Numbered from the stretch's first letter, positions 1,779 through 53,064 are shown. The stretch is 63,168 bases of DNA from a virus (IMGVR_UViG_3300042878_000174:1-63168); one strand, 5' to 3'. The notes: a model not told the origin generated them from the letters alone. Made by a program: numbers and translations.

Positions 1779-1788
1779 CGTTTAAACC

Positions 1789-2052
1789 TTAAGCCATTGG
1801 GCCACGGGACATAAAGCCTTTGGTCGCTGCACCTGCACCGCGCATCTTGATGCCAGTTGTTTTAGCTGCTGGTGCAGGGCGACGATACACGTTACCTACA
1901 GCCATATTGACTGTTCCGGCATCGCTGTGGTCATCACCACTGCCGGGGTTCTCAGAAGCTTTAACGACTTTACCAGTCATTGTGTGTGGCGTAGCGTAGA
2001 CCTTGGCATCGCCAACTTCTTTACCCATCATTTTTTTGCTAAATGTAGCCAT
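1789..2052 (-). CDS. Small basic phage protein (hypothetical)
   Basis: 87 residues, lysine-, methionine- and glycine-rich, starting MATFSKKMMGKEVGD, with GAGG about six bases before the ATG. The RRPAPAAKTTGIKMRG stretch is low in complexity and probably flexible and nucleic-acid binding. It opens a run of small basic genes (1.8-6.5 kb) between the adaptors and capsid genes. Packaging of these proteins with DNA in the virion is inferred only. Confidence 0.75.
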   Translation of the reverse strand: MATFSKKMMGKEVGDAKVYATPHTMTGKVVKASENPGSGDDHSDAGTVNMAVGNVYRRPAPAAKTTGIKMRGAGAATKGFMSRGPMA

Positions 2053-2054
2053 GA

Positions 2055-2638: not shown

Positions 2639-3567
2639 TACATACTCCCACCAATAAACATCTGACGGGGCACAAAGCGGATGGCCGCTTTCTCTCTGTC
2701 TTCACCGGCTGCCAGATCAAACTGCTCGTTGTATGCAGCCTTAAGCATCTCAAGGCGGGGCATTAACTCAGGCACTTTCATGGCGATGTGATACGCCAGA
2801 CCAGCCACTACACATGGCAGGAAGCGGAAATTCATGTCTGCTGTCTCTGCACCAGCGCCAGCATCCTGAACCCGGCGCAATCTCCAGTACACAAACTGGT
2901 AAGACGTGCTGTTATCAGGCGTAGGCCAGACAGTAACCGCAGGAAGCTGAGGAACAAAGACTGCCGTGCCATCTGCCTGAGAGGCAGCCGTTGTATTGTT
3001 CTGACCACGGAATACACCACCAAGGGTATTCCCTGAGATGTAGCCATAGTAGATGTCTTCACTGTTTAAACGCAGAAAACCAGATCCTGCTAACCCAACC
3101 ACCGTGTTAAGCGTGAGCGTGGTGTCCGTGGAGGAGATGGCTCCAACCAAGACCGCATCTGTTGGGTTAACTTGTCCAGAAAGCCGCTGAACCCACACTT
3201 GAATGGGACGTGCTTGCTGTAGCTTGTTCGGTATGGTCGCATAAGTAGAAACACTAATACGTGTGATTGTTAGGTCAGCCTGCGTGGAAGAGGAGTTCTG
3301 GCCTGTACGGATAACCTGCTCTAACAGATCAATCGTATCTGTAGGCAGGGCGTAGGTAGCAAGACCCGGTGTCAGGTTAATAAACCCTTGCTCCATCGTC
3401 CACATGTTGATGCCACGGTTCTGCCACTCTATGGTCATGAGGTTCATTGATCTGCGTGCTGTACGCAAGTCATAACCTGAACGCATCTCCCGACCCGCAC
3501 GCTCCCATGCTTCCTCGGCAATCTCCGTGAAATCCATATTGAAAAGCGTTGATCCGGTAGTGGTCAT
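2638..3567 (-). CDS. Head-tail adaptor / gp4-like head completion protein
   Basis: 309 residues. The N-terminal segment (EIAEEAWERAGREMRSGYD, then ARRSMNLMTIEWQNRGINMW) is the helical pattern of podoviral head-completion adaptors. A central beta insertion (about 95-215) and a C-terminal helical part (VAGLAYHIAMKVPELMPRL) follow. These proteins bind the portal and seal packaged DNA. It overlaps both neighbours (by 1 and 4 bases), so it belongs to one tightly packed transcript. The P22 gp4-type assignment is moderate. Confidence 0.75.
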   Translation of the reverse strand: MTTTGSTLFNMDFTEIAEEAWERAGREMRSGYDLRTARRSMNLMTIEWQNRGINMWTMEQGFINLTPGLATYALPTDTIDLLEQVIRTGQNSSSTQADLTITRISVSTYATIPNKLQQARPIQVWVQRLSGQVNPTDAVLVGAISSTDTTLTLNTVVGLAGSGFLRLNSEDIYYGYISGNTLGGVFRGQNNTTAASQADGTAVFVPQLPAVTVWPTPDNSTSYQFVYWRLRRVQDAGAGAETADMNFRFLPCVVAGLAYHIAMKVPELMPRLEMLKAAYNEQFDLAAGEDREKAAIRFVPRQMFIGGSM

Positions 3568-4562: not shown

Positions 4563-5489
4563 TTAGCAAATTTTGCAACGTGTCTTGCCTTTAGTGGCAA
4601 TACCGTCAGCACGTCTAGACGCAGATGAAACCATTCCACCGGAGGCATATTGCTTTACTGCACCACCGCGCTTCTTGGCGGTGACATCGGTAACATCAGA
4701 ATCTTTGCGGGGGCCGCTAAGTTTTTTTGTATCCATACCAATTTTTTTGGTACTTAATGCTTTCTTGGCTGCTTTTGCCGCATCGTACATTTTCTTTGCT
4801 TTGTATGCACCAAGAGCACCCAAACCTGCTACACCCGTAGCCATTAAGGCATTGCCAACGTTGCGACCAGTTTCTGAAGAATCAATTTTTTCACCTTGGG
4901 GTGCTTTAGCAGATTGGCCGGGAATCTTAGCGGCGGCAGATTTCTCTTCATCACGAGGGCCACCGTGCGTAGCAATAGGAGGGCTTGTGCCAGCATCACT
5001 ACGCATACCACGTAATGGGCCTGCGTACTGGGGAGCTTGAGGCATACCAATACGATCTTGTTCGGGCTTTGGTTTAGACGCAACAGGCGGTCTAGCAGGT
5101 AACGTAGGCTTATTCATTACCTGACGTGTAGGCTTGACGGTTTCGCTAGAGCTACGACCAGCACTTGGGCCATAGTCTGAATACATGTCGTCAGACAGAG
5201 GACGTGAAGACGCAGCAGGCATAGAAGGGGCGGATGGCATAGGTTGATTAACCGATACCGATTCACCGCGATCACGGCCACGGCCAGCACCAAAGCGGTT
5301 GTATGCTTCCGAGCCGGGCTGGTCAATGTTACCTGCGCGGATGCGTTCAAAGAAGCCTACAGGAGCTTCTTTATTTGACATCTCTAGGCCACGTTTTTTA
5401 GCAGCGGCTTCCATGGGATCCATTTCACCCATAACTTCGCCGCCACCTTCGTAGCGTTTAAACTTCTTCATTGGTTTCTTGGTAGCCAT
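4563..5489 (-). CDS. Disordered basic virion-type protein with C-terminal RADGIATKGKT motif
   Basis: 308 residues, mostly low complexity (Pro, Ser, Lys, Arg) and probably disordered. A short Ala/Gly-rich hydrophobic segment (VGNALMATGVAGLGALGAY) lies near 210-230. The extreme C-terminus SSASRRADGIATKGKTRC, ending in Cys, repeats the tail of its neighbours. The N-terminus is a Lys-rich stretch (MATKKPMKKFKRYEGGGE). No known domain is recognised. Confidence 0.75.
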   Translation of the reverse strand: MATKKPMKKFKRYEGGGEVMGEMDPMEAAAKKRGLEMSNKEAPVGFFERIRAGNIDQPGSEAYNRFGAGRGRDRGESVSVNQPMPSAPSMPAASSRPLSDDMYSDYGPSAGRSSSETVKPTRQVMNKPTLPARPPVASKPKPEQDRIGMPQAPQYAGPLRGMRSDAGTSPPIATHGGPRDEEKSAAAKIPGQSAKAPQGEKIDSSETGRNVGNALMATGVAGLGALGAYKAKKMYDAAKAAKKALSTKKIGMDTKKLSGPRKDSDVTDVTAKKRGGAVKQYASGGMVSSASRRADGIATKGKTRCKIC

Positions 5490-5499: not shown

Positions 5500-5964
5500 T
5501 TAGCAGGCTTTGCCGCCCATGTTCATCTTAACCATTGTTGCTTTGGTTTTGCCTTTTGTAGCAATCCCGTTAGCTGATTTGCGGAATGCGCCGCCAGCAG
5601 CCAACTTAGTCATAGGCTGACCTTTGTGCAAACGGCCTTCGTGTTTATTCACAGCCTTCTGCATCATCTTTTTGTCCATCTTGACATCTTCATGAGCCAT
5701 GCCGCCTTTTTTCATCTTGCCAACGCCATCAGCAGCAAAGTCAGGAACCATTTTCCCGCCCTTGTTGACCATGTTTAAACCGCCTGATGCGTATCCACCC
5801 ATGTTCATCTTTTTCATATCACCACCTTTAGAAAATTTACGGCCTTTGTCAGCCGCTGAAAAATCTTTCCCCACAGAGGTGGGAACGCCTGCTTTCTTAG
5901 CAAAAGATGGGTTATTAGCCACCGCTGCCATGAAATTATGTTGAGCTTTACTCTTACTTGGCAT
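5500..5964 (-). CDS. Basic protein with MPSKSKAQ N-terminus and C-terminal ATKGKTK motif
   Basis: 154 residues. It begins MPSKSKAQHNFMAAVANNP, a start found in many phage proteins of unknown function. Lys/Met/Gly-rich repeats follow (KKMNMGG, VKMNMGG), and it ends in SANGIATKGKTKATM and a final Cys. GTTTAAAC at 5773-5780 is in coding sequence. It is likely expressed with the virion genes; DNA condensation or capsid lumen association is possible but unproven. Confidence 0.78.
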   Translation of the reverse strand: MPSKSKAQHNFMAAVANNPSFAKKAGVPTSVGKDFSAADKGRKFSKGGDMKKMNMGGYASGGLNMVNKGGKMVPDFAADGVGKMKKGGMAHEDVKMDKKMMQKAVNKHEGRLHKGQPMTKLAAGGAFRKSANGIATKGKTKATMVKMNMGGKAC

Positions 5965-7530: not shown

Positions 7531-7688
7531 GATGTGTCCTTACATACAAGTTAAGTGCATTGATCTGTATGTCGTCAGCCGGGACTGTTCAATGCACCGG
7601 ATAAGCCCGGATTACCATGTTTATACCACTGTGTTTAAACCAATGCAACAAAAAAGGGGCCGAAGCCCCTTTCTTTTTTTGATGCCTA
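7531..7688. promoter_or_regulatory. Intergenic region downstream of the capsid gene, with a possible minus-strand promoter
   Basis: 158 bases without a gene. On the minus strand TTGAAC, a 17-base spacer and TACAGA form a weak sigma70-like match upstream of the 6997-7530 gene. One GTTTAAAC (7633-7640) and the capsid-gene terminator are also here. The promoter is a weak call. Confidence 0.35.
7649..7680 (-). terminator. Intrinsic terminator after the major capsid gene
   Basis: On the minus strand the stem GGGGC-TTCG-GCCCC is preceded by an A-rich arm and followed by TTTTTT. A T run also lies on the plus-strand side, so it may act in both directions. It should terminate capsid transcripts just beyond the stop at 7689. 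Confidence 0.85.
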
Positions 7689-9682: not shown

Positions 9683-10646
9683 TTTCATTCCTTCTTAATA
9701 TTGCGACCTCACGAGCATAGCGTTCCAAAGGAAGGCCTAGCCGCTTGGCAATAGCCACTTCCGAGGCAGACAATGTGATCTTTTTAGGGGCCACACTGCG
9801 TGTCGCAGAAGCAACAACGTTTGATTTCCTACGCTGCGTCGTATCAGCGGGTTCACCAGATTCAAACTTATCTGGAAACACTTGACGCAATCTACCGTTG
9901 ATGCGTCTGTAGTATTCGTCACTCTGAGGATCCATGCCCTCATCGTTAACCAGCTTTTCATGCACCGCCAGAGCGAATCCGGTCATTTCCTTGTCAGTAC
10001 CAAACCATTTATTGGTTTTTTGCCATTCAACAGCTTTGGTATCAACGCGGGGTGCTTGCTGATATTCGGGTTGTACAACAGTTTTTTCCTCTTGTAAAGG
10101 GGCAGGCTTAAAATTGTTTACACGCTCCGCTTTCATCTTCGCGGTGGTCATATCTTCCTGAGCCTGCACTAGAGCATCTGCGTCACCTGACTCATATGCA
10201 GCTTTGTACCGGTCTTTGGCTTCCTTGACCTCTTGTGCAACAACCCTCTTAGCCTGCTCCAGTAAAGCGCTTTGACTGGTATGTACGTTGTTCTTCAGTT
10301 TCTGATTTTCTTCATAAACTGCTTGAGCAATGCGAATTGCCTCTTCTTTCTCGCGTATCGCGGCCTCTTTGGCCCTGCGTTCGTCGTGATAACCCTTGGT
10401 AAATTCACGAAGTTTGTTGCGATCCTTTTGAGAATAAGCGGCTAACTCTTCATCTGTTGGCTCTTGCGGAGGAGTTTCCATGGGCGTTCTGCCCTTGTCC
10501 TCATCCGGTGTGTCATCGACAACCTCTATCTCAGGTTCTTCTTTGACTTCTTCAGGCTCAGGCTCTACGACCTTGCTGCCTAAACGGCTCTGTTTTGCCT
10601 CGATTTCATCGGGAAACTCAAATTCTGTTTTTTCCATTTCAGCCAT
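9675..10646 (-). CDS. Scaffolding protein
   Basis: 323 residues, highly charged. The N-terminal third is acidic (many Glu/Asp, about 1-70). A long coiled-coil centre follows (KEEAIRIAQAVYEENQKL onward, about 95-180) and a basic C-terminus (KKITLSASEVAIAKRLGLP). This acidic, coiled, basic-tail layout between portal and capsid genes is typical of podoviral scaffolds. The basic end probably contacts the capsid protein. Confidence 0.85.
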   Translation of the reverse strand: MAEMEKTEFEFPDEIEAKQSRLGSKVVEPEPEEVKEEPEIEVVDDTPDEDKGRTPMETPPQEPTDEELAAYSQKDRNKLREFTKGYHDERRAKEAAIREKEEAIRIAQAVYEENQKLKNNVHTSQSALLEQAKRVVAQEVKEAKDRYKAAYESGDADALVQAQEDMTTAKMKAERVNNFKPAPLQEEKTVVQPEYQQAPRVDTKAVEWQKTNKWFGTDKEMTGFALAVHEKLVNDEGMDPQSDEYYRRINGRLRQVFPDKFESGEPADTTQRRKSNVVASATRSVAPKKITLSASEVAIAKRLGLPLERYAREVAILRRNENG

Positions 10647-11255: not shown

Positions 11256-13637
11256 TTAGCTACCTCGTTTAAACAGGTCAACTTGAACCTTTTGGTTGTT
11301 TTGTTTTTCCTGAGCTTGCATACGAGCCATATCAAGTTGAGCCTGCGTGTCGATCCGCTTGTTCTCAAGTTCGAGTTTGGCCTTCCCAAGTTCAATATCG
11401 GCGGCAATCTTCTGCGCCTTGGTCTGTGCTTCCTGACCCTTAAGCTGGAGTTCAGCTTGTTGCATCTGCACCATAGGATCTTGTGCTTGTTGCTGGGCTT
11501 GCTGTTGTTGCTGGTTAGCTTGGTTAAGCTGTAGCAACTGAGCGGAGCCTTGGGCAACCAGACGGGACAACTGCACTTCCACGTCTTCTGGTAGTTTGGA
11601 GTCTGGAGCGGGCAGAGGTACACCGACCTGCTCCTCAACTTTCTTGCGGTACAAGAATGCCAAGTGCTCTGCAATGTGAGCCATCACTGCGGCTTGGATC
11701 TTCTGTGCCATTGGGTTCTGGCCAATCTGGGCTGCAATCATTGGATCCTGCATGAACGCAGTGTGCGCTGCAATGTGCGCTTCTTGATCCTGATAGATGA
11801 ATGCTTTAGTTGGCTTTCCGTTGAGGAATGCCATGTTCTCACTGATCGGATCTTTAGGCGTTTGGTCATCTGCGCCGGGGATCAGTTTGTCTGCGTTTTT
11901 GACACCTAGAACCTCAATCATCTGGCGGTGCAGCAAAGGCAGGTCATAGATCTGCGGAGCACCCTGAGCCAACTGGATCACAGCCTGATACTGCATGATC
12001 CTTTGAGCCATCGTGGAACTATTAGGATCTGATACAGGAATGACCTCGACCATGTCGTAGTCAGATTGTTTTACCTGACGGTCGTTGCCTTGTGGGTCGT
12101 ACTCATACTCAGCGGGAGAGTAGTCCCTGATGATGCCTTTGAGCAGTTTAAACTCTTGCTTCATTGAATAATGAACACGGGCCTGCACTGCGCCCATGGT
12201 CTTCAATGTTCTCTCAAGTAACGCTAAAGTTGTACCGACCGGAGCGTTGGCGCTCATGTCAGAGATCTTCATGTCTGAGATAGAACCCAGACGGCGGCCT
12301 TCTTCTGTGATCCTATCTAGAAGAGTTAACAAAGTGCCACTTGGCTCTTTGTAAGGCAGCATCATAATGTTATCTTTGATGACACCGCTTGGAACATCAA
12401 CGTCCCTGAACTCACCCGGTTGGATAGGTGTGTCGTCGCCTTTGATACGAGCACCACGTGCTTTCAAGCCGCCGGGCAAGTTAGCTAACGTACCTGCGTC
12501 CACCAGTTGACGGATCAAAGATGTACCTGCACGGGCGTAACCACCAATGATGTGGATTAGACCCATACCGTAGAAACCAAAGCCGGGGATGTAGCAGTAG
12601 TCTACAAAGTGCTGCCGTTTGGTCTTCTTAGCATCGTCTTCTAGGTAGTTACGGCGGATGGCAAGAATCTTGTTTGTGCCACGATCAATCGTGATGACAT
12701 AAGGTAGGCCGATGCCTGTCTCTTCGCCTTCAGAATCTGTATCTTCAAAACCTTCTAAGTCCCAATATGCGTGGACTTCCAAGAGTTGGTAGCGGTCGTC
12801 GTCTGTGGCTTTGTAACCTTGTTGGTCGGCCTTCTTCTTCTCAATGTCTGAGAGATGCTGGACAGGCTCACCTAAGTCTATATCCCGATAGAAACCGCTC
12901 ACCTGTAGGCGACGCATTTCATTCTTGGTCTTACGCATCACATGGGTCACACGTTCTGCGTTTTGGAGATTAGAAGCACCGTACGGGACAATCATGTCTT
13001 CGGCAGGAATAAACACTGCGACTTGACGCTCCATAGCTGGGTCGTAGTAAACCTTCTTAAATGCTGCGCCTGACAGACCTAAGGAGTACAGCATCCGCTC
13101 ATGTTCTGGGCGGTACTCAGGCATTTCTTCCGTAAGTTTGAAGTTCATGTCAGCCTGCACACGCTCGGCTGCTTCTTCTTTCAGGCGGTCAATCGCACCG
13201 ATGATCTCTGTCTTAACAGGGCCAGCGGCAGGGAAGGTTTCCATGATGGATTCGGATTGGAACCGAATCGCAGCTTCCGTCAGGACTGTAGAGTAAACAC
13301 CGCAGGCTCCATTCCATGGCTCTGTACGCTCTTCATAATTAACGCCTAGGACTTCCAAGCCTTTGACAAAGCTTTCTGCCCAGTCTTTGCGGGAGGCTAT
13401 GTCAGCTTCTACGAGTTCTACAAGCTCAGAGGCAATCTTGCCTAAAGCACCGTCGTCAAGGATTTCTGCAAGGTTGTCATCAAATTCGCTGTCGTATTCT
13501 GATTCCGGTTCTAGAATAATCTCAACGCTTTCCTCTTCAATGATGAGGGGATCGTCTAATTCAACGTCCACGCCGATGTCTTCGAGGAGGTCTGAAAGAC
13601 CCATAGGTGCTTGGCTGATTGCTTTGTCGATACTCAT
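11256..13637 (-). CDS. Portal protein
   Basis: 793 residues, within the size range of large podoviral portals (P22 gp1 is about 725). The wing/clip region includes WNGACGVYSTVLTEAAIRFQ and YCYIPGFGFYGMGLIHIIGG. The C-terminal roughly 170 residues form a Gln/Ala-rich helical barrel-like coiled coil (QANQQQQQAQQQAQD). Portals form the dodecameric DNA gate and bind TerL and adaptors. It follows TerL with a short gap, as in many phages. GTTTAAAC occurs at the stop (11267) and within the gene (12146). Confidence 0.88.
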   Translation of the reverse strand: MSIDKAISQAPMGLSDLLEDIGVDVELDDPLIIEEESVEIILEPESEYDSEFDDNLAEILDDGALGKIASELVELVEADIASRKDWAESFVKGLEVLGVNYEERTEPWNGACGVYSTVLTEAAIRFQSESIMETFPAAGPVKTEIIGAIDRLKEEAAERVQADMNFKLTEEMPEYRPEHERMLYSLGLSGAAFKKVYYDPAMERQVAVFIPAEDMIVPYGASNLQNAERVTHVMRKTKNEMRRLQVSGFYRDIDLGEPVQHLSDIEKKKADQQGYKATDDDRYQLLEVHAYWDLEGFEDTDSEGEETGIGLPYVITIDRGTNKILAIRRNYLEDDAKKTKRQHFVDYCYIPGFGFYGMGLIHIIGGYARAGTSLIRQLVDAGTLANLPGGLKARGARIKGDDTPIQPGEFRDVDVPSGVIKDNIMMLPYKEPSGTLLTLLDRITEEGRRLGSISDMKISDMSANAPVGTTLALLERTLKTMGAVQARVHYSMKQEFKLLKGIIRDYSPAEYEYDPQGNDRQVKQSDYDMVEVIPVSDPNSSTMAQRIMQYQAVIQLAQGAPQIYDLPLLHRQMIEVLGVKNADKLIPGADDQTPKDPISENMAFLNGKPTKAFIYQDQEAHIAAHTAFMQDPMIAAQIGQNPMAQKIQAAVMAHIAEHLAFLYRKKVEEQVGVPLPAPDSKLPEDVEVQLSRLVAQGSAQLLQLNQANQQQQQAQQQAQDPMVQMQQAELQLKGQEAQTKAQKIAADIELGKAKLELENKRIDTQAQLDMARMQAQEKQNNQKVQVDLFKRGS

Positions 13638-13645: not shown

Positions 13646-15142
13646 TTAATAATATTCCATGCGTCTGCGATATACAGGTTCATCTGGCTCATCAGAATCG
13701 ATGGAAATGAACCCGCCTTGACGGAATCTCATCAAAGCTTGGCTGGAGGAGTCAACAAGGTCGTCATGATCGCCATTGGGGAAGGAGGCCAGTTCATCCA
13801 TCACTTCTTCAGCCCAACGAGTCTCTGGACACCAGACAACACCTGAAGCAAACAGATCGGAGATTGCGTTTACACGCGAGATCTTATCGTTTCCTTTGCC
13901 CGGTGTAAACTCAGAAAGCGGAATGCCCATCTTACGCATCTCATAGATGAGCGGAGCACCTGCGGCTCTCTTCTCCACGATCAATGTATCTGGCTCCCAT
14001 TCTTGATAAAGCTCCAAAGCCATTTTCTTAAGCTCTGGAAACTCCATGCGTTGTTTAAACGCATCTAGCAGGATGATGTTTGGCCTCATGTCACCGGATT
14101 TGTTAGGGTGTTGGAAGACACCCCATGTAGTGCAGGCAGAATAGTCTGCGCGGTTGTTCTTTTCAAAGGCCGTGTCCCAGCTTTGGATGATGTAATCGCA
14201 CTGCGGGGGTGTATCTTTGTCCCAGATAGACCATTGTTCCCGCTTAATGATTGCGCCTTCTTCGGATGTGGGGTTCTGTTGGTACTGAGCCTCCCATTTA
14301 GCGACTGGTAGTTCAGCTTTTAGCGCTTCTAGCGCTGTTTTTGACCAAAAAGCTGGCCATAAAGGCGTTCCAGACGGCATGATTGCCGGAAAATCAATGA
14401 TTTCCCACTGATCTACGCCATCTTTCCCTGCGTTTTTGAGAATCTGGCCGGTCAAGTCACGTTTCGACCACCTAGTCATCACAATAATGATGGCTCCACC
14501 CGGCTGTAAACGCTGGCGAGGGCCAGATGTGAACCACTCATAGACATTATCAAACACCGCAGGGTTGCCTTGCTTGGCTTCCTGCTCCGAATGAGGGTCG
14601 TCAATGATTAAAAGATCGGCTCCTTTACCTGTGACAGCACCCCCAACGCCAATAGCGAAGTAATCACCACCCACGTGAGTATTCCAGCGACCGGCGGCCT
14701 TTGAATCGCTCGATAGCTTTGTATCAAATACCTTCTGATAGTTCTCTGAAGAGACAAGATTCCTAACCTTTCGTCCAAAGCCTGTAGCAAGTTCTGCGGT
14801 GTGTGCAGTCTGAATGATCTTCTTCTCAGGAAACTTACCCAAGAACCACGACGGGAGCAGATAAGAAGCAAACTCAGACTTTGTATGCCGGGGCGGCATG
14901 TTGATGATCAGGCGCTTGAGATCACCACGGGCAACCCTTTCAAAGGCATCGGCCATTATGGCGTGGTGTTTGCCAGAGATGAAGATAGGCCACATCTGCT
15001 GAACAAAGAACAAATAGGATTCTTTGCATCTCTCAACCCGATCAAACTCTAGGAGCTTCTGAACCTTGGCTCTTTCTGCGGGAGGGGCAGTGTCGGCAAG
15101 CGTCAAATAAAGCTCAATCTCTTTGCGGGTCAGTAGGCTCAT
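13646..15142 (-). CDS. terL: Terminase large subunit
   Basis: 498 residues. An ATPase domain has a Walker A-like motif NMPPRHTKSE (about 81-90) and Walker B LLIIDDP (Asp181-Asp182). A C-terminal RNase H-like nuclease has SWDTAFE (Asp323), LIVEKRAAGAPLIYEM and a final acidic cluster GDHDDLVD. It translocates DNA into the prohead and cuts it. Its start overlaps the winged-helix gene by four bases (ATGA). All key motifs are present. Confidence 0.93.
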   Translation of the reverse strand: MSLLTRKEIELYLTLADTAPPAERAKVQKLLEFDRVERCKESYLFFVQQMWPIFISGKHHAIMADAFERVARGDLKRLIINMPPRHTKSEFASYLLPSWFLGKFPEKKIIQTAHTAELATGFGRKVRNLVSSENYQKVFDTKLSSDSKAAGRWNTHVGGDYFAIGVGGAVTGKGADLLIIDDPHSEQEAKQGNPAVFDNVYEWFTSGPRQRLQPGGAIIIVMTRWSKRDLTGQILKNAGKDGVDQWEIIDFPAIMPSGTPLWPAFWSKTALEALKAELPVAKWEAQYQQNPTSEEGAIIKREQWSIWDKDTPPQCDYIIQSWDTAFEKNNRADYSACTTWGVFQHPNKSGDMRPNIILLDAFKQRMEFPELKKMALELYQEWEPDTLIVEKRAAGAPLIYEMRKMGIPLSEFTPGKGNDKISRVNAISDLFASGVVWCPETRWAEEVMDELASFPNGDHDDLVDSSSQALMRFRQGGFISIDSDEPDEPVYRRRMEYY

Positions 15143-16707: not shown

Positions 16708-16737
16708 TTGTGTAAACAATATCAATGCCCCTAAAAT
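16708..16737 (+). promoter_or_regulatory. Candidate sigma70 promoter of the SprT-MoxR-VWA operon
   Basis: TTGTGT (16708-16713), an 18-base spacer and TAAAAT (16732-16737). The -35 is weak and the -10 is good. The start site would fall at about 16744, inside an inverted repeat that could act as operator. Confidence 0.5.
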
Positions 16738-16742
16738 GCACA

Positions 16743-16760: not shown

Positions 16761-16781
16761 CAACCTAAAGGTGCTTACATC

Positions 16782-17369: not shown

Positions 17370-17388
17370 ACATAGGAGAGTCAACATC

Positions 17389-38800: not shown

Positions 38801-41711
38801 ACTGCTGAGGCGTAAAGAAATTCAAATCCTTCAGGGCGTGCAAAGCCTCATGGCGCAAGATACGCACTGGTTCTTTTTCTTCCAAGGCAATCTTAATCAG
38901 GCTCTCGTTGTAGGAGCCTTCTGAGTCCAGCTTCTCAACAAGGTTTAGCTTGACATTACCAAGGCCAAACTTTTCGAGGATGGGTTTGAGTTGGGCTTCG
39001 ACAGCCGCCATCTTCTCTTTGAGGCCGGGTGTCTCTTTGGCCGCTTCAGCCTTTGCCTTGGCGGCTTTGGCTTCAGTTTCAATGCCTTCCAGAACCTCAG
39101 ACACAGGCTTGCCTTCTGTAGGTTTGGGTGCAGTTCTGCGTTCCAGTTCAGCCTGAGCCTTCTTACCTACTGCCCGACGGCCTTGTTGCTGAGTCAACTC
39201 TTGCAGTTGCTTCTCATCCATGTCGGCCAAGATGCCTTCTTCAGCCGCCTGACGGGATGGATATGTAGCACGTGCCTGACCCTGTTCAAACACGGTATAG
39301 CCTTTACGGCCAATAGCTTTAGTGCCTGTTGGCTTGACTGCAAGCGCAGTAACCTTAGGATCAAACTTCTTGATCTCTTCTGTCAGGGCGGCAATCTTTG
39401 CCTGTGTGTCTTCAACCAACTTGGCGTGCTTACCGGCGGCCTTTTGGTAACCAGTCGTCTGACCTTTGCCTTGAGCCTCCATGGTGGTTAAACGCTTCTG
39501 GCTGGCTTCGATGGCGTTGTTCAACTGCGTGATTTGATTCTCACGAGCGTTAGCCATACCAGCGCGGGTACGCTCAAAGCTGTCCTTCTTGGCGTTGGCT
39601 TCTTCGATGGTGTTAGCTTTAAACAGTACTTCGTCACCGGCCAGCACGTCGTATCCTGCTGGGGCTTCACCCTCTTTAAACGCACCTTCACGGATGTCAA
39701 ATCCTTCGGGCAGCGTGGCGGAGGTGGCGGGGGCAGCGATGGCATCTGTTGTAATCTGCCTAACGTTTAAACCACGCTTGGCCGCAGCAGCGCGTGCAGC
39801 AGTTCTAGATGTGTAGGTAGACGGAAGGGCAGTTCCCGTCTTGGGATCATAGATCTCATAGCGAGGAGTCTTGATCAAGTCAACGTCACCATTCTTAATG
39901 GCCGTATCAAGGATAGCTCCCGCATGGGAATCTTCTGTAAGGTTCGTGTATTCCTTGATAGTCTTGATGACCTCTTTAGGATCTACAGGAACGCCTAGTT
40001 CTGCCAGTAGAACATCCACACCCTTGATGGCTTTGTCGTATTGCTTCTCATCAAACCGGCGTGCGTTTGTGCCTTCGGGCAGGATGTTTAAACCTTCCGA
40101 CGCGGGCAGGCTGTTTAATGATTTAAACGCAGCATGTAGCTGCGGCTGTGACATCTGCTCCAGTGCGCTTGCACCAGTCGTTCTGGCTAAGAAGTCTTTG
40201 AAGCCTTTAGTACTAGTATCTACGTTCTTCAGCTTGGCTTGATTCAGGATGTCTTGTGCGGTGTACTTTTCACCGGCATAACCAGACTTGGCGGTGATAA
40301 GTTCATCCAACAAGCCTTGCTCGGCCTTAGGGTTAACCCCCGGCATAGCATCCACAAAGTCCTCAATCGAGTACTCCTTGAGCTTGGGAAGTCCAGCTTG
40401 CTTGCGGTAGTCATCAATCTGTTTGTAGATGTCAAAGGGGACTTCGCTCTTGCGGATGTTGCCTAAAGGATTCTTAAGCGGGTCTGTCTGTACTTCTTCA
40501 ACGGGGATTTCCTCAGACGGCGCAGGCAAAGCAATAGCCTGCTGTTGCTCCATTTGCTGACGGATTTGATCGGTCTGTTTCTGAAGAACAGCACGCTCGG
40601 CTTCTGCCTTTTGTGTCGCAGCTTGTATTTGTGCGTCAGCTTCGGCTTGTTTTCTAGCTTGTTCATCGGCTAATGTCTGTTTGTATTGACGTTGCAGATT
40701 AGACATCTGCGCGGGGGAGACAGCAAGACCTAAGACTGATCCAACCAAAGCGTCGTGTGCAACTGTACCGGCCAGACCTTCGGTTAAATCTTTCTCTACA
40801 CCAGATTGGTTCAAAGCGATGTTAGTGCCAACTTGTCCTACCGCAGCTTGTACAGCTTCAGGTGCGGCTTCACCCAACATAGTCAAGCCAATTGCTTGCT
40901 TGTAGCTTGGCGCATCCAGAGAAGGCGCTCCCACGCCCTTGCTAACCTTCTTAGCCGCATTAGCGATTACTTGCTCGACACCGAACATACCCTCTAATGC
41001 GCCTGCACCGCCAGCCAATAATTGGCGGGGTAAGTTTTCTCCTGAATATGCAGATGCCTCAAGCGCTCTCTGTTCTGCAATAGCAGGGTCTAAACCTTTG
41101 GCAAGCAAAGCTTCTTTCACTGCCTCGTAGTCTTGGCCCTTCTGACCACCAACGCCCATCAATCCACCGATACCAGTTGCACCACGTGCACCGGCCAATG
41201 CTCTAGCACCAAAGCCTGCGCCTGCGGCTACTTGACCACCGGGCAACAGACCCGCAGCAATGATTGGTGCGCTGCCAAGCAATGCGTTTACAGTGCCCTG
41301 TACGGGAGCCTGTGTAAACCTACGTATGCCAGTGCCAACCTCGTTAGCCAAACCAGTACCTTGAGCGCGGTTCTCAAGTTCGGCTTGAATAGCTAATTCT
41401 TCCTGACGGGCAGGAGTCAGGTTTTCTTGTGCATATTGTTGGATAGATCCCAAGCCTTTGGAGACTGGGTTATCTACACCTGCAATGTTTGTAAGTGCCT
41501 GTACGCCACCGGCCAGTGCACCTAGGCCGCCTAGACCAATGTCTTTGATGGTACTGGGAGCACGTGGGGTTTCTTCCAGTTCCTTGGAAGTCAAACCCGC
41601 CATAGGGTTCTGGCGCAGTAACTCTGCTTCTACTTGGCGCTGAGTTGCCCCGTCTGGGCCTTGAACTTCGTATGTGCGGCCATCAGGGGCAGTAATTCTA
41701 TACAGTGCCAT
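32784..41711 (-). CDS. Giant polyvalent virion/ejection protein (2975 residues)
   Basis: Multidomain. The N-terminus is a short module (ITAPDGRTYEVQGPDGATQR) and Gly/Ala-rich hydrophobic stretches (about 55-330). A Gln/Ala coiled coil lies at about 340-395. A zincin motif HEALHALK has its His at 954. A Cys-rich GP88-like region (TTCPQSGICEDLCLG, about 1355) runs to about 1560. Two tandem ADP-ribosyltransferase-like domains, each starting with a 'W.G.SKVVD.DGKPLVVYH' type block, lie at about 1735-1925 and 1933-2120. A C-terminal region of LPD38 type (about 2440-2750) follows. Such polyvalent proteins are thought to be injected with phage DNA. Five R-[FYL]-S-[LI]-[RK] motifs stand before domains. 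Confidence 0.85.
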   Translation of the reverse strand: MALYRITAPDGRTYEVQGPDGATQRQVEAELLRQNPMAGLTSKELEETPRAPSTIKDIGLGGLGALAGGVQALTNIAGVDNPVSKGLGSIQQYAQENLTPARQEELAIQAELENRAQGTGLANEVGTGIRRFTQAPVQGTVNALLGSAPIIAAGLLPGGQVAAGAGFGARALAGARGATGIGGLMGVGGQKGQDYEAVKEALLAKGLDPAIAEQRALEASAYSGENLPRQLLAGGAGALEGMFGVEQVIANAAKKVSKGVGAPSLDAPSYKQAIGLTMLGEAAPEAVQAAVGQVGTNIALNQSGVEKDLTEGLAGTVAHDALVGSVLGLAVSPAQMSNLQRQYKQTLADEQARKQAEADAQIQAATQKAEAERAVLQKQTDQIRQQMEQQQAIALPAPSEEIPVEEVQTDPLKNPLGNIRKSEVPFDIYKQIDDYRKQAGLPKLKEYSIEDFVDAMPGVNPKAEQGLLDELITAKSGYAGEKYTAQDILNQAKLKNVDTSTKGFKDFLARTTGASALEQMSQPQLHAAFKSLNSLPASEGLNILPEGTNARRFDEKQYDKAIKGVDVLLAELGVPVDPKEVIKTIKEYTNLTEDSHAGAILDTAIKNGDVDLIKTPRYEIYDPKTGTALPSTYTSRTAARAAAAKRGLNVRQITTDAIAAPATSATLPEGFDIREGAFKEGEAPAGYDVLAGDEVLFKANTIEEANAKKDSFERTRAGMANARENQITQLNNAIEASQKRLTTMEAQGKGQTTGYQKAAGKHAKLVEDTQAKIAALTEEIKKFDPKVTALAVKPTGTKAIGRKGYTVFEQGQARATYPSRQAAEEGILADMDEKQLQELTQQQGRRAVGKKAQAELERRTAPKPTEGKPVSEVLEGIETEAKAAKAKAEAAKETPGLKEKMAAVEAQLKPILEKFGLGNVKLNLVEKLDSEGSYNESLIKIALEEKEPVRILRHEALHALKDLNFFTPQQWNALERMAKSEWTDKYLKKKIVEHKGERMSAYDAYVDIYNNDMAKVTEEAIAEAFADFANNKPPAGMLAALLKRLNDFFTALRNALSGAGFQTYEDVFGKIERGELSQKPSAWKANDKVKEDAVKYSMKFGIDPYTSEGQINVPLDGDNTRFSIKQPYDQKKLSKDETLKNDPITGLPLNANGTVTLYYPTTNESARDLAATRKLKGHSPTANRIYLTNESSSAAIENKPGMIDQPVGGANVLLQVDPSVIHILEEYPDGRKDFFIPIAEGKAFEKKMAQTKLFTLNAPRTKGLHPDRTLKQVTTAVNDAATKWANSSAADRRIMARNAKDVLRAEHNISRLFGANSKLEKTNIGEYGLTYNGKKVMSTGLGFASAQKINDEQRATTCPQSGICEDLCLGETSGQNLLYGGEGQWRSGPRLSQYLKTEALVVNPEAFAIAMIKQIESFRKAARDLDYHPAIRLNVTSDFNPSTFENIINMFPDVTFYDYTKLDTKPIAPNHHLTYSSTGASQVVGNKTIFNKFSNWDRMVDKILPSGRNVAMAFTSRSSMPKFVKDERTGKTFEVWNGDEYDARFLDPVKEGGDGLIIGLTNKDNTTKPEDAAEKHNGFFLDYDPERDGDTLVIPNQEKLKGNQGQPVTFSKKPRFSLRQVSLTEDEQRYFDAVFDNRSDLAELRDFVPSAQYAISDDYMTSKFVLDTRDMDGLSDYLSEVSASGKKQYGGEGASSLPRSFASAGNAFLNKARKTAEPKKPSVKSNERLSLREAPNTPEFKQWFSGSKVVDEDGKPLVVYHGSPDFKGNAFTGKVERKNRAGNVAGYYFTPYADEASDYAADRKTRQYQEGSQVLPVYLNIKRPYIAGESRVTPAMKDAYLQEMIASNQHMSNERAAEWAKTKVPFFTDGRLPSADALNGDGDAMQRILKAGNYDGFKDGRHWVAFESSQVKSSIGNVGTYGSGNPDIRYSLREAPDTAEFKEWFGDSKIVDADGKPLVVSHISKAKPTVFDKKYKTDLSSMGFHFGTKEQAEFRGTQYDFDSRSPTMGDYYLSIQNPLEVSHMASYAPDHLADQMMDMDLISVEKYDSFRDKYSSEPEIGAALVKILQKAGYDGLVYSNEMEGAGNSYVPFESTQIKSATDNTGAYSKYNPDVRYSLRESTDPATVNRVNATTTTREEKGFADRITKAFSGDSFSVLRQQALNRYQRLAEYDKELAKRMGGVALMADVSAEAGALQSDLAAGVTASVLGVHDRNGGIPVYANGVTKAFNDNGKIKGPVAIFAPLSKYNDPYIYQLYQFWAAAQRGSRLNEQGRPDIFTDEDLRKAQQLEKDHPEFRQIQEEWTTFNNGLVQFLVDTGVLSEGDKARFTEYSDYIPFYRQMEGEKTIGPNLFQSISGVKKPKKLGEGTDKAPLADFLETVVRNTQSSIQMGMKNVAAQRAINVAMQIDMAEKLPPKSKAGLDTVQVLEKGQVVTYQVADHMFIEAVKSLNMPDLPFIGLLSGPANFLRNMVTKDPGFMLANMVRDSMAAYVTSGVKMTPIADTVRNFGKAMANTSPEYEALLNAGILGGYEFSQNIETSAEAFERELKKKYEGKSTFQRMLNPMSAPRALWDALEKGTTASDAATRIEVYKRTLAETKNEAEALHRALEVMNFNRKGSSAVVRIMTAAIPFLNARMQGLDVLYRAGISPTFRQLMYGEKPTDREKSVQKAFIVRGLTMAALSAMYWTLTHDDEEYKRQEQETKDNNWLIPSLGIKIPIPFEIGVIFKVIPERLMALTLGEDTNKDFMESMIRNLRSTLAIDYLPQAIKPFVETETNFSLFTRRPIVGQGLEGVAPEFQVGPGTSSLAATLGSTLGMSPMKIDHLIGGYTGTMGMYMVSALDGVINMNTDTPVASKRFEQLPLIKRFALDPEARGTVTSYYNLKNATDEAVRTSSLLERTMDFEERNKYMQDNIRMLANKDYILDLEKTMKEFRQMQVLIRSSRMDADAKREALLRINQAQNALTANINMIRANVM

Positions 41712-41719
41712 GTTTAAAC

Positions 41720-43504
41720 TTATGTAGGATTAACAGGTTTAAATGTACCAAATCCGGGGCTAGGTGTGTTGACATCTTGCGTACCAGATTTACCAGTAAG
41801 CAATCTTTGATCAGCCATAAAGCGCTCAATAACCTTATTGCGCTGTGTAACCAAAGCTTTTTCTTCAGCAGATCCGGGCTTGAGCACGCTCAATTGTTGG
41901 TCAATCATCTTAGTCTTCTCAGCCAAAGCGTCAGCAACCGCTTTAGCTTGACGCTGTGCGGCACTTTGATACTGACCACCAGCAATCAAAGCTGCGGCAC
42001 GATCAGATGCTTCGTTGAAAGTCATGCCCTGATTCTGGCGCATGATCTCTTGAGCAACTTGAATAATCTGCGGTGAACGAGCGGCAGTGGCAGCTTGGAT
42101 ACTGTTGCCACGGGCTTGTTCTTTAAGCTTGGCAATGTCCATCTCGTTGGAAAACTTCTTCTGCTCCAATTCCAAACCAATCTTTTCTGCATCTTGCTTA
42201 TGTTTAAACGCAGCTTCAAAGTCACCACGCGCTTCAGCACGACGGGCAGCTTCAAGTTCAGCACGCATCTTAGCCATGCCCATCTCTTGCTCACGACGCA
42301 TCTTGGCTTGTGCATCGGCACGCTCAAATGCAGCCGCTTCAGAAGCGCCAGCAGATTTACCAAAGCCACCTAACAAAGCACCCAGACCTTTTTGACCACG
42401 GGTAGATTCGCCTGCGGCAATTAAAGCTTGGAAAAAGTCAGAACGTGTACGAGCTTTTTCTTGCTCTGATACACGGCCACGGTCGGCTTCATCTTGTTGA
42501 GCCATCTTATTAAGCAACGCCTCAAACCCAGCCCCAGCCATGCCGGGGTTAGCTTGTTTAAACTCAGCCAATTTTTTGCTGTAAGCCTCTGGGTCAGGTG
42601 CTGTAAACGATGGAGCACCGGGCATCTTGATACCGGCAGGGATACCACCACCGGTTCCGGGCATAGGTGGCATAGGAGGTGCGGGAGGAGCGGCTACAGA
42701 TGCAATGCCAGAAGCGCCTGCGTTTTGACGCAACAAGCGGGCAGTCTCTGCGGCACTTTGATCATTAGGGCTTGTAGGAACATTAGGCGCACGGCTTTGT
42801 TGGCCGCGCCTTAATTCATCCATGGCAGGCGTAGCCGTGCTTGTGTCAATCATGGAGCCAAGATAAGGGATCTCTTTACCAGATAAAGCACGGGCTGGGC
42901 GGATTAACGCAGTGTCAACTGCACCAGCTAAACCACGAGGAATTAGGGTGGCAACGTCATATCCTGCCGCACTCATTTTGTCAATAATTTCTGAAACGGC
43001 TGCACGATCGCCTTTGAGTTGAGCACGTGCCAGTTCTTCTTTGGCTTTGTCTTCAACCACATCGCCGTTGGCAAAAGCAACAACACCGCCACCGCCTGCG
43101 AATTTAAACATGTCATTGGTTGGCAGGGAAGTCAATCCACCCGCAGCCATCTGGGGCATCTCTGGCATCTCTTCCTCTTGCTGAGGAGGCTGAGGTGTAC
43201 CTTCTGGTACTGGTTGAGGCTGACCCATCAGGCTTTGCTGAAGTTGCTCATTAGACTGCGCTTGACGGGCAGCACCGGCCTGCATGAGGTCGGTAGCCTG
43301 TCCTGTAATCTCTTTCTCAAGCTTGTCTTTGACTGTGCCTTCAGGAGGTGTTCCTGTCCTTGCAGACTGCTCCATCTGCTTGCGGCGGTTTAGTTCACCC
43401 AAAGCCAAATAGGGAGGAACTTGTGGGTTCTTCCCGTTAGCGTATTCCATGATTGCCCTCATGGGCATATCCTTGAGGTGCTCTTGTACTTGGATCAGAT
43501 TCAT
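41720..43504 (-). CDS. Virion/ejection-type protein (594 residues)
   Basis: The N-terminus has IMEYANGKNPQVPPYLALGE, a short module common in phage internal virion proteins. Pro/Gln-rich and Gly-rich linkers (about 85-145 and 270-300) and a long charged Ala/Glu/Arg coiled coil (about 370-480) follow. No enzyme motif. Being next to the polyvalent gene on the same transcript, it is probably an internal virion or ejection partner. Confidence 0.75.
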   Translation of the reverse strand: MNLIQVQEHLKDMPMRAIMEYANGKNPQVPPYLALGELNRRKQMEQSARTGTPPEGTVKDKLEKEITGQATDLMQAGAARQAQSNEQLQQSLMGQPQPVPEGTPQPPQQEEEMPEMPQMAAGGLTSLPTNDMFKFAGGGGVVAFANGDVVEDKAKEELARAQLKGDRAAVSEIIDKMSAAGYDVATLIPRGLAGAVDTALIRPARALSGKEIPYLGSMIDTSTATPAMDELRRGQQSRAPNVPTSPNDQSAAETARLLRQNAGASGIASVAAPPAPPMPPMPGTGGGIPAGIKMPGAPSFTAPDPEAYSKKLAEFKQANPGMAGAGFEALLNKMAQQDEADRGRVSEQEKARTRSDFFQALIAAGESTRGQKGLGALLGGFGKSAGASEAAAFERADAQAKMRREQEMGMAKMRAELEAARRAEARGDFEAAFKHKQDAEKIGLELEQKKFSNEMDIAKLKEQARGNSIQAATAARSPQIIQVAQEIMRQNQGMTFNEASDRAAALIAGGQYQSAAQRQAKAVADALAEKTKMIDQQLSVLKPGSAEEKALVTQRNKVIERFMADQRLLTGKSGTQDVNTPSPGFGTFKPVNPT

Positions 43505-44422: not shown

Positions 44423-44431
44423 GTTTAAACC

Positions 44432-45382
44432 TTATGCTGGTAAATGTTTGTCAGCCTTGGAATTGGCTGCAACGTTCTTTAAAGTCTTGCCACGAGCTTT
44501 TTGGATACGATCCATCATGGCATATAGTTTACGTGCTCCTGCGTCTGTAGATCCATTACCGATCTCAGAAACAATACGGGCTGGGATGACAAACTCGCCA
44601 TCGGCCAGACGGGCTGGTTGGTTCTTCCCAATCATCGCAGGGATGTCATCAGACACACCATCGCCCGGCCCTTTAAGGAGGCGACCGCCATCGGAGTAGC
44701 TACCCAAAGACCCTAGCCCACCCTGAGCCATACCGCCTTGAGCGTATCCGGGTTCTATGATGGGATTGGCTTGTACGGGTGCGGGAGCCTCTACAACCGG
44801 AGCGGCTGCCGGGGCAGCAGCCTGAGGCGTGTAAACCATAGGTGAGAAGTACGTTACGCCACCTGAGCCGGGGCGACGTGCCATGCCTGCGTTTGGCCCC
44901 ATAGCCGCTTGATAGCGAGATTGAATATCTGCCAAAGGAGTTTGAGTTACGTCAGCAATTTGCTGCGGTGCAACACCAAACTCATTCATAGAACGAGCAA
45001 TCATTGAGTCGTTTAAACCGGGTCTTTTAAGATAATTTAAAACTTCTTCGTTAGACGGTGCTGGGCCACGGTTTACTGTGCTGACCGGAGGAGCGTACTG
45101 TGTACGTGAAGCTGTGTACTTTGGTATGCTTCCTTGGTATCCCTTGAAGCCACCACCGCCAGAACCACCCATAGAATTGAGCAAAGCGCCCAAACCGCCA
45201 AGACTTGCAATCTGCGCCATGGATCCAGATTTGCCGGACAAGATTCCGCCAATAGAACTAAGGATACCGGGGTCGTAATTTATATCCGACAGGATTTGGG
45301 AGTTAGATGGAGATGCCCCCAAGTCATTGTAGGCAAACGCATCGTTCCTAGGATCCGCAAAAAAATCGTATTCTTCACCCAT
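44432..45382 (-). CDS. Virion protein with DGEFVIPA motif
   Basis: 316 residues. The C-terminal block GDGVSDDIPAMIGKNQPARL, ADGEFVIPARIVSEIGNGST and GARKLYAMMDRIQKAR is conserved in tail-region proteins of many podophages. The centre is Pro/Ala-rich linker. It likely joins the internal or tail-tip assembly with its two neighbours. Confidence 0.78.
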   Translation of the reverse strand: MGEEYDFFADPRNDAFAYNDLGASPSNSQILSDINYDPGILSSIGGILSGKSGSMAQIASLGGLGALLNSMGGSGGGGFKGYQGSIPKYTASRTQYAPPVSTVNRGPAPSNEEVLNYLKRPGLNDSMIARSMNEFGVAPQQIADVTQTPLADIQSRYQAAMGPNAGMARRPGSGGVTYFSPMVYTPQAAAPAAAPVVEAPAPVQANPIIEPGYAQGGMAQGGLGSLGSYSDGGRLLKGPGDGVSDDIPAMIGKNQPARLADGEFVIPARIVSEIGNGSTDAGARKLYAMMDRIQKARGKTLKNVAANSKADKHLPA

Positions 45383-50636: not shown

Positions 50637-50983
50637 TATCCAACCTTCCAATTTGTTCCGTCAGAATATACAGGCACAGCCACTGCGCCGCCAGTCACCA
50701 CGGTTGCCCCAAATGTTGGGCCTAAAGCATCTGTTACAAAAGCTCTTGCACCTTTGCCTGAAGTGACTGCGCTTGGCAGCGTAGCCACGGTGTAATTAGT
50801 TAAAGGAGGCACTATGCCAGAAGCCATCAACTGAGTAGTTAACGCATCAATCCTGTTGAAGTACAGACGCAAGATGTTTAGCATCTGGTCAAAATACACA
50901 CGGTTGTACGCGTCCGGAGGTAGCGGCAAGTTAGGTGCGGCTACCTTGTTAAGCTCAAACTCTGACGTAATTATGTAGGTCAT
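50636..50983 (-). CDS. Small virion protein (hypothetical)
   Basis: 115 residues. LPPDAYNRVYFDQMLNILRL and YFNRIDALTTQL form a helical N-terminus seen in short tail-associated proteins; the rest is beta-like (ARAFVTDALGPTFG, PVYSDGTNWKVG), close to the 'v.DA..PT....v.GGG...vpVysDGt.W' module of phage neck and fibre proteins. Coupled on both sides. Confidence 0.78.
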   Translation of the reverse strand: MTYIITSEFELNKVAAPNLPLPPDAYNRVYFDQMLNILRLYFNRIDALTTQLMASGIVPPLTNYTVATLPSAVTSGKGARAFVTDALGPTFGATVVTGGAVAVPVYSDGTNWKVG

Positions 50984-53064
50984 CGTCTGCCGTCCGGTCT
51001 AATGTCAATACGGGTAGCACCCAACTGCCAAGCTGTTCCTAGATTGTCTGAGCTAACTTTGAGAATTAACTGCCTGCCCCGCACACGAGTATTAATCTGG
51101 CCTGTAAAGCCCTCAGTCACTACGTATTGAGCGCCGGTTAATTTGTCTACATCTTTATTTACCGCAGTACCTGTGCCAGAGCCTGAGTTCTGCATTGGGT
51201 ACAAAGTGTACGTAACCTGCGGAGTTGGAGATGCGCTTGATCCAGAGAACGTCAAGTCAGGCAACATTCTCCAAACAAATCCAAAGTGTTCACCGTCCTC
51301 AATGTCAAACTCTGCGGATGAGATGTAAGCCTCAATGCCTGCTGGCGTACCTGTTTCGTTATTGTCTAAACCAAACTCCTGATCAACCAAGTTATAGCTG
51401 TATGTTGCGGCTATTGGATAATTACGCAGACCAGAGTCAAGCCATGCCGTTCGCGCCATCGTGCCGTAGTACCAGACCTTTTCAAGGTAGTTGTACACCA
51501 CATAACGATCAACAGTCAAACTATTGGCAGAGCAATAGAACCACCAAATTTCGTTAAACCCTTCGTTAGTACTTGCAAAAACCTGTTGATTCTGGTCAAG
51601 GTTAATGTCTTGATAAATATACCGGCGAAGATCACAAGGTAAAGTCTGCAAGCGTCCATCGTACAGATAGAACTTATCAACGCCCATCCAATACACCACA
51701 CCAGAGGCTTGGGCCGCTGCGTTCTGACCAAGGATAGATATGTTATCTCCCATCAACTGACTAGACCAAACCACTGGCGGGCCAATGTATTGGAGTGAAT
51801 AGATAGCTGAATCAGTCCAAACCAAAATCTCTTGGCGGGTCTGGATGGCAGTTACGATGCTTGAGCCGTGAGATAACGTAACGCTACCAGCCTGATTGGT
51901 TGCGGCTGGTGTCCAGTTAACCACAGACTCTTGATCTGACCAGCGAACAAGCATAGGGCTTTGGGCTGTAGCACCATAGTCATTACAGCCAAACGCAAAC
52001 ACAAATCTACTTACGTCAGATACAAAGATAAAGTTTTGAATAATGGGGCAGTCTGATGCACCAGATAAATTAACAATGTTTACACCGCTAGGCATGATGT
52101 AATGAACGCCAGACTGCGATCCAGAGGTATTGATGGCCGCACCGCCGGGTGTAGCGGATAGGTTAAATGTTGTACCGGTGGAGTTCTTTACGTAATAAAT
52201 AGTGCCAACTACGAGGCCAGTAGGTAACGCAGACGGAAAGCCTTCGTTAGTCAAAATCACGGGCAGATTATTTGCCAATGAGATTGCTGTAGTGACAACC
52301 GCAGGAGAGCCTATGGTGACCGTAAATGATGCTGGTGACAGACCAAACGAAGCATCCCAGTAGTAAATAGGGCCGCCACGGAAACCATATATTAAGTCTT
52401 CACCAAAGTTATTCTGACTCCACAGACGCAAAGCAGCGTTACTTGTACCGCTAAAGCCCCAAGTGCCAGACCCCCAAGAACCTGCGCCCCATCCTGTTTG
52501 CGGGGTTTCGTAAGCTACGCCAGTGTTAATCTGGTAGACAGCAGACACTGTAGTGCCGCCGCCGGTTGCAGTAGATGAAGCCGCAGAAGCCGCTGTAATG
52601 TTGTAAGTATCTGCGTCAATTAGAGTAATCTGATATTCATTGTTTAGGTTTAAACCACCAACAGTAGCTACATTGCTAAAGCTTACAAAGTCTCCATTAG
52701 CCGCGCCATGCGCTGAATCAGTGACTAAAACCGTGGTGCTTGTATTGGTGGTAGTAAAAGGATTGCTTAGTACAGCTGCCGCACGGATTGGCGTAATGTC
52801 GTAATAATCGCCACCATTCTCAAGGTAAAACTTAAGGTTAGTACCTACACCAATTAGGTTCAAATTCTCAAGCGTAATCCAGTTCCACAAAGAACGGCAT
52901 ACACCTTGAAAATAAGACACTGAAATACGTGCCCAGCCACCGATCTTTTCAGGCGTACCTTGGCGAAACCGCACTTTGTCGGACTCATACCAACCGTTCT
53001 CGTTGGCATAACGGGTGTTCTCCCGGTTAATGCCCGGCTTCAATATAAGTTTTTTAAGCGCCAT
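50980..53064 (-). CDS. Packaged DNA stabilisation protein (P22 gp10-like)
   Basis: 694 residues. The N-terminus KPGINRENTRYANENGWYES then KVRFRQGTPEKIGGW is characteristic of the phage stabilisation family (P22 gp10). Long beta-rich body with FRGGPIYYWDASFG, VRWSDQESVVNWTP and WTDSAIYSLQYIG. These proteins plug the tail channel after packaging and join adaptors to the needle. The single GTTTAAAC of the right-hand 17.5 kb lies here (52648). Confidence 0.87.
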   Translation of the reverse strand: MALKKLILKPGINRENTRYANENGWYESDKVRFRQGTPEKIGGWARISVSYFQGVCRSLWNWITLENLNLIGVGTNLKFYLENGGDYYDITPIRAAAVLSNPFTTTNTSTTVLVTDSAHGAANGDFVSFSNVATVGGLNLNNEYQITLIDADTYNITAASAASSTATGGGTTVSAVYQINTGVAYETPQTGWGAGSWGSGTWGFSGTSNAALRLWSQNNFGEDLIYGFRGGPIYYWDASFGLSPASFTVTIGSPAVVTTAISLANNLPVILTNEGFPSALPTGLVVGTIYYVKNSTGTTFNLSATPGGAAINTSGSQSGVHYIMPSGVNIVNLSGASDCPIIQNFIFVSDVSRFVFAFGCNDYGATAQSPMLVRWSDQESVVNWTPAATNQAGSVTLSHGSSIVTAIQTRQEILVWTDSAIYSLQYIGPPVVWSSQLMGDNISILGQNAAAQASGVVYWMGVDKFYLYDGRLQTLPCDLRRYIYQDINLDQNQQVFASTNEGFNEIWWFYCSANSLTVDRYVVYNYLEKVWYYGTMARTAWLDSGLRNYPIAATYSYNLVDQEFGLDNNETGTPAGIEAYISSAEFDIEDGEHFGFVWRMLPDLTFSGSSASPTPQVTYTLYPMQNSGSGTGTAVNKDVDKLTGAQYVVTEGFTGQINTRVRGRQLILKVSSDNLGTAWQLGATRIDIRPDGRR

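Follow-up and report, generated by a model that had tools for sequence, protein, structure and literature searches.

A palindromic word dispersed over phage genomes and its link to a SprT-like zinc-ribbon protein: a putative genome-wide control system compared with stoperators

The cluster A mycobacteriophages carry stoperators, more than 20 dispersed copies of one site that are read by one phage protein (the L5 gp71 or TipsytheTRex repressor); each stoperator is an asymmetric 13-mer aligned with the direction of transcription, and its reader is a two-domain helix-turn-helix (HTH) repressor (PMC9283540). The subject of this paper is another dispersed word, the perfect palindrome GTTTAAAC, in a virus record of the IMG/VR database (IMGVR_UViG_3300042878_000174:1-63168; 63,168 base pairs (bp), 49% guanine + cytosine (GC); the whole stretch is called the window hereafter), together with its proposed reader, a SprT-like protein with a zincin domain and a C-terminal zinc ribbon, encoded by the sprT-like gene at 16782-17369 on the plus strand (sprT below). 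Zinc metalloproteases coupled to the control of a prophage or defence operon are known in ImmA-ImmR, IrrE-DdrO and CapP-CapH, and cyanobacteria have HIP1 (GCGATCGC), an over-represented 8-bp palindrome of the host chromosome that occurs in coding and non-coding DNA. Spartan (SPRTN) is a DNA-dependent protease (PMC5127644). As a whole, the evidence described here makes it likely that GTTTAAAC is read by the ribbon of the SprT-like protein and that this protein is an autoregulated genome-wide repressor or roadblock.

Like stoperators, GTTTAAAC forms many dispersed copies of one site, in promoters and elsewhere (49 against 1.2 expected in the window). However, it is a symmetric 8-mer, its half-variants lie about equally in both orientations (51:54 in five actinophages), the protein linked to it is SprT-like with a zinc ribbon and not an HTH repressor, and phages without a recognised integrase also carry the system; no integrase was recognised among the window proteins scanned, and a block of transcription with superinfection immunity, as stoperators provide, is putative here. 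Because the site is symmetric and not transcription-oriented and its proposed reader is of another kind than HTH proteins, the system is not a member of the stoperator family. With SprT and Spartan (6mdw, 6mdx) the protein shares a zincin domain with HExxH, its DNA-dependent protease activity being putative, but the phage family keeps the ribbon even where the active site is lost, and no description of sequence-specific DNA binding by SprT or Spartan was found in the literature searched. It resembles the metalloprotease-repressor pairs in that CapP is a weak structural match to it; whereas those systems consist of two proteins, the protease fold and the proposed DNA-binding domain are here in one chain. 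Finally, GTTTAAAC shares with HIP1 its over-representation in coding and non-coding DNA, but its excess is tied to a phage gene. Stoperators are thus the best fit among the analogues that an earlier note on this DNA had named; HIP1, Chi and uptake sequences find no support, as the excess tracks a phage gene across very different hosts, and for Chi or an uptake sequence a strand-oriented asymmetric word would be expected.

The earlier note had counted 49 exact copies by eye where about one was expected. A program also counts 49, against 1.23 (order-1) or 1.25 (order-2) expected under Markov models, so the count is not near expectation, and no other 8-mer of the window is enriched to the degree of GTTTAAAC, which ranks first; the reversed control word CAAATTTG occurs twice. 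All start coordinates given in that note are right except 32414, which is really 32415. Its term "genome-wide" is apt for the first 45.4 kilobases (kb), which hold 48 of the 49 copies, and not for the tail region (45.4-63.2 kb), where the sole exact copy lies at 52648-52655. One-base variants, which had seemed common in general, are not: only GTGTAAAC/GTTTACAC is clearly raised (13+6 copies against about 2 expected). Copies not wholly within a gene number 12 of 49 in DNA that is about 92% coding, and those wholly genic are divided 20 to 17 over both possible reading frames (Leu-Asn or Phe-Lys; the use of several frames had been noticed before); the copy at 17364-17371 reads Val-stop and includes the stop codon of sprT itself. 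The word is palindromic, it falls in either coding frame and in non-coding DNA alike, and its half-variant occurs in both orientations, all of which supports the earlier proposal that selection acts on the double-stranded DNA itself. A coding artefact as the origin of the excess is ruled out by the use of both frames and by the copies at gene junctions. No methylase was recognised among the window proteins scanned.

The partner gene emerged from a comparison of gene content, in which open reading frames were called and clustered for 39 site-rich contigs and 5 site-poor relatives (about 2000 proteins). One family only, that of the SprT-like protein of the window, was present in 31 of the 39 site-rich contigs, which come from phages with no other relationship, and was missing from all five site-poor ones; a hidden Markov model recognised it in 34 of the 39. 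The probable start of sprT is ATG 16782, in a frame open from 16725 (16725-17369, +); the HExxH metalloprotease motif (HELCH) lies at 17028-17042 (+) and the C-terminal zinc ribbon (K-T-Q-G-T-R...C..C.Y..R...C.C), the proposed DNA-binding domain, at 17226-17369 (+). Residues invariant throughout the family include Q, T, R, K, C and R of the ribbon, the two arginines being R173 and R187 in the window frame. An AlphaFold2 model of the window protein has a predicted local distance difference test (pLDDT) score of 91.8. Pfam PF10263 (SprT-like) matches the protein at E=3e-4, which falls short of the curated cut-off; the Pfam SprT-like family is recognised in 42 of 47 members, and viral SprT-like models match the window protein with E down to 3e-18. 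Fold matches in the PDB are weak (abylysin zincin at E=0.014, the TFIIE-alpha zinc finger and CapP), and a structure search with the isolated ribbon gave generic zinc-ribbon likeness only, with nothing below E=0.001. Alignment-based collection scans for the family were unproductive because conserved stretches are lacking.

Another regulator might read the sites, for example the LexA-type HTH protein encoded at 15139-15405 (-), sprT being a passenger or a target. The window does encode this 88-amino-acid protein, a lone LexA-type HTH DNA-binding domain (phrog_362), and sites in the sprT promoter would agree with a target gene; however, the HTH family is present in only 6 of 44 contigs, for which reason it was rejected as a general reader, no second family spans the site-rich contigs, and within the SprT family sites are present or absent according to the KQxTR motif of the ribbon. 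We regard a different reader as very unlikely.

The dependence on the ribbon was also seen in a sample taken blind to the word, in which viral contigs were scanned for DNA encoding KQ[GST]TR..K..C and matches in SprT-type frames were kept. The 343 contigs chosen in this way contain 2590 copies of GTTTAAAC against 53.7 expected (38 of the reversed control word) and 419 of GTGTAAAC/GTTTACAC against 70 expected, and nine chance matches of the ribbon DNA pattern contain 0 GTTTAAAC against 1.9 expected. Enrichment is found in 274 of the 310 pieces of at least 4 kb; the sample comprises 141 protein clusters at 60% identity, and among the clusters with a single x residue 91 of 119 are enriched. Conversely, GTTTAAAC is lacking where the SprT-like tail has no KQxTR, namely in Bordetella phage CN2, Pseudomonas phage PSA20, Microbacterium phages Kieran and Armstrong and three IMG contigs. 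The word and the ribbon motif are therefore linked near-obligatorily, and the ribbon very probably binds GTTTAAAC directly, a conclusion drawn from this sequence pattern. The word AGTTCCTC, considered as an alternative word of the ribbon-less SprT phage Kieran, was unconvincing, being codon-like and intragenic.

The zincin domain itself brings in a tethered protease, that is, sites which recruit the SprT-like metalloprotease to strip or cleave proteins on phage DNA (host silencers, crosslinks), with regulation being secondary. The window and 280 of the 343 sampled loci have an intact HExxH, and the family groups with SprT/Spartan-type zincins, of which Spartan is a DNA-dependent protease (PMC5127644). 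However, a whole clade of 40-kb phages that is among the site-richest has lost HExxH and kept the ribbon, in two contigs (G042 and L177) the ribbon alone seems to remain, and sites are present in the sprT promoter; moreover, the 63 ribbon loci without HExxH in frame have 995 GTTTAAAC against 14.3 expected and are at least as rich as the others. Protein removal as the primary role is accordingly judged improbable.

The SprT-like family was found by tblastn in 163 named records, and in cultured phages the link between ribbon and word can be followed over distant hosts. GTTTAAAC is the top 8-mer of Methylophilales phage Venkman (34 copies against 1.7 expected), Dinoroseobacter phages R26L and R5C and Burkholderia phage Mica, and the half-variant is the top 8-mer of Arthrobacter phage Yang, Microbacterium phages IAmGroot and Zeta1847, Streptomyces phage JackieB and phage 4A; ribbon and word (GTTTAAAC or GTGTAAAC) thus occur together in phages of Streptomyces, Arthrobacter, Microbacterium, Dinoroseobacter, Methylophilales and Burkholderia. 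Operators of phages as a rule diverge fast, which makes it unusual that one word is kept across phages of Actinobacteria and of alpha-, beta- and probably gammaproteobacteria. Among the closer relatives of the window, where the earlier note had recommended a count, the excess is common: 80 contigs with related terminases have 584 copies where 10.9 would be expected. By terminase, the closest relatives that have a name (DSL-LC04, 023Pt_psg01, HTVC027P, HTVC023P and MinM2, 47-58% identity) have 0-3 GTTTAAAC, and no palindrome is enriched to a similar degree in them. When viral contigs were scanned for three closely spaced GTTTAAAC sites, about 100 stretches were found, many of them with 1-4.7 copies per kb and no similarity to the window in nucleotide sequence; of the contigs then checked in full, most contain 12-54 GTTTAAAC against 0-4 of the reversed control word, and in many site-rich contigs the sites are crowded into one block of about 7.5 kb.

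The same distribution bears on a host-driven palindrome, in which the phages would be adapted to a GTTTAAAC-rich host, as with HIP1 or the target of a host methylase. Freshwater metagenomes are the source of many of the phages, which leaves room for such a host; however, the excess tracks a phage gene across phages of all six host groups named above, it is missing in phages with a ribbon-less SprT, and among the cellular matches listed in the triple-site scan there is no genome of comparable GTTTAAAC density. Of 16 cellular genomes checked among these matches, 14 have ordinary or low counts, and in the other two the word exceeds the control about twofold and about tenfold. HIP1-like host amelioration was rejected, the cellular triple-site matches listed being mostly clustered regularly interspaced short palindromic repeats (CRISPR) or tandem repeats with ordinary counts, and a host origin of the excess is extremely unlikely.

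The position of the sites suggests what the SprT-like protein may do. Of 190 sprT genes, 90 have a site in the 200 bp upstream of them against 35 expected, and in 11 of 14 cultured or window cases it lies 15-65 bp before the start of sprT or of the sprT operon, where the chance of an upstream site is 0.5-8% per case and the E. coli-type phages among the 14 are mutually related. In the window this is a half-variant site GTGTAAAC at 16710-16717 (+), 64 bp upstream of ATG 16782, the proposed operator. The promoter site directly follows TATAAT in Bas97, ECO1230 and PT1 and lies between -35 and -10 in JackieB, and Achromobacter phage Mano has only two sites in 30 kb, one of which is in the sprT promoter. 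The site in 11 of 14 cases therefore suggests an autoregulated repressor with dispersed sites, and negative autoregulation of sprT is fairly probable from these positions. At gene junctions the sites often stand directly before ATG (ATG at +8 or +9 in 345 and 252 cases against about 140). A general promoter element was rejected, since sigma70-like promoters contain only 92 of the 4028 sites, and shifted controls gave 36-71.

In many relatives the early or replication region has the highest density of sites, so the word might also mark replication origins, iterons or partition sites, the protein being a replication or segregation factor. The intergenic clusters with a spacing of about 42-46 bp and the highest density in replication regions agree with this, but actinophage sites are spread genome-wide, structural genes included, and Mano has just its two copies; a replication or partition role is very unlikely indeed. 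In the window, two near-repeats 42 bp apart, each with GTTTAAAC, stand in a long intergenic gap (26041-26130; sites 26061-26068 and 26103-26110) and are possibly an iteron or regulatory pair. In three related 40-kb phages, three sites about 37-46 bp apart occupy a similar intergenic position (L169 3063-3153, L102 3923-4020 and L331 4027-4123).

The shape of the site was derived from the ribbon-sampled contigs. T3 is replaced by G 6.0 times and by C 2.9 times as often as expected, and G1 by A 2.0 times; the remaining substitutions are at most 1.2-fold or depleted, and a pyrimidine (Y) is preferred before the word and a purine (R) after it. The near-equal orientation of the half-variant favours double-stranded DNA over RNA as what is recognised. 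A strict specificity code, in which residue x of KQxTR sets the tolerance of GTGTAAAC, appeared near-perfect in the first 41 genomes and weaker in the unbiased sample, and was rejected.

Several observations weigh against a SprT-like repressor that reads the word. The E. coli phages ECO1230-10 and Bas97 (HeidiAbel_Bas97, PQ850606), Salmonella phage PT1 and Achromobacter phage Mano have only 2-6 copies, which is above expectation; the sprT promoters of Zeta1847, R5C and 4A are without a site; and promoters hold a small minority of all sites. Five site-rich contigs lack a SprT-like gene in the available sequence, four of them being pieces of 7-14 kb, and an Omnitrophota metagenome-assembled genome (L231, G014) has 289 GTTTAAAC in 1.8 megabases, where the control word occurs 27 times, with no SprT relative detected. 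In addition, contigs related by descent recur because the sampling required KQ[GST]TR, the covariation of residue x with GTGTAAAC tolerance is largely confounded by GC content (GC-stratified permutation p=0.03), and Zeta1847 contradicts it.

In the proposed mechanism, the C-terminal zinc ribbon marked by K-Q-x-T-R would read GTTTAAAC, tolerating GTGTAAAC, with the flanks Y...R. The SprT-like protein would occupy an operator in its own promoter, repressing it, and tens of other sites, which lie in promoters, at gene junctions and inside genes, and the outcome would be a genome-wide repressor or transcription roadblock that is functionally stoperator-like; that internal sites act as roadblocks is quite possible, if somewhat doubtful. 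The protease domain may serve as a switch. A bolder proposal, which we consider rather unlikely, is that the KQxTR ribbon is a new sequence-specific module, either joined to a SprT metalloprotease or detached from it, that reads one and the same 8-bp word and coats actinobacterial and proteobacterial phage genomes, the protease being a built-in switch that releases or reshapes the coat during infection by cleaving itself or its neighbours. SprT-like proteases are annotated in many cultured phages without a known role, and the finding provides a concrete and testable one, pointing towards a phage control system that is both new and genome-wide. The word, amounting to 16 bits, can be scored in any phage genome and could help to link phage contigs to a sprT-like gene; a zinc ribbon that is compact and specific for 8 bp would, if true, be a useful tool. 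No paper tying GTTTAAAC or GTGTAAAC to phage regulation or SprT was found in the open-access literature, subscription journals and preprints being outside the search.

Besides those already located, exact GTTTAAAC copies of the window lie at gene junctions at 1780-1787 and 44423-44430, the latter adjoining an ATG, at 41712-41719, where the site fills a two-gene gap and adjoins an ATG, at 18818-18825, flanked by a Shine-Dalgarno-like sequence and an ATG, and in intergenic DNA at 2244-2251, 7633-7640, 15408-15415, 20636-20643 and 22087-22094. The others are at 3064-3071, 5456-5463, 5773-5780, 11267-11274, 12146-12153, 14053-14060, 15378-15385, 15609-15616, 18225-18232, 19436-19443, 19999-20006, 21318-21325, 22037-22044, 22389-22396, 22431-22438, 22488-22495, 23284-23291, 24203-24210, 28113-28120, 28763-28770, 29318-29325, 30117-30124, 30576-30583, 31732-31739, 32064-32071, 32415-32422, 34362-34369, 34902-34909, 36488-36495, 37410-37417, 38574-38581, 39765-39772, 40086-40093, 42202-42209, 42556-42563 and 45011-45018. 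In addition to the proposed operator, half-variant sites occur on the plus strand (GTGTAAAC) at 794-801, 13903-13910, 15735-15742, 23216-23223, 23935-23942, 24953-24960, 27528-27535, 32319-32326, 33368-33375, 37946-37953, 41312-41319 and 44829-44836, and on the minus strand (GTTTACAC as read on the plus strand) at 2396-2403, 10116-10123, 13868-13875, 29984-29991, 35319-35326 and 52078-52085.

Beside sprT, the window encodes a MoxR/CobS-like AAA ATPase (17389-18810, +) and a CobT-like VWA protein (19911-20597, +), and further on a polyvalent protein of 2975 amino acids with ADP-ribosyltransferase, LPD38 and GP88 domains (32784-41711, -). In an AT-rich phage (L321, contig G024, about 53186-55354), several intergenic GTTTAAAC sites are the centres of longer near-perfect palindromes, which are possibly terminators built around the word.

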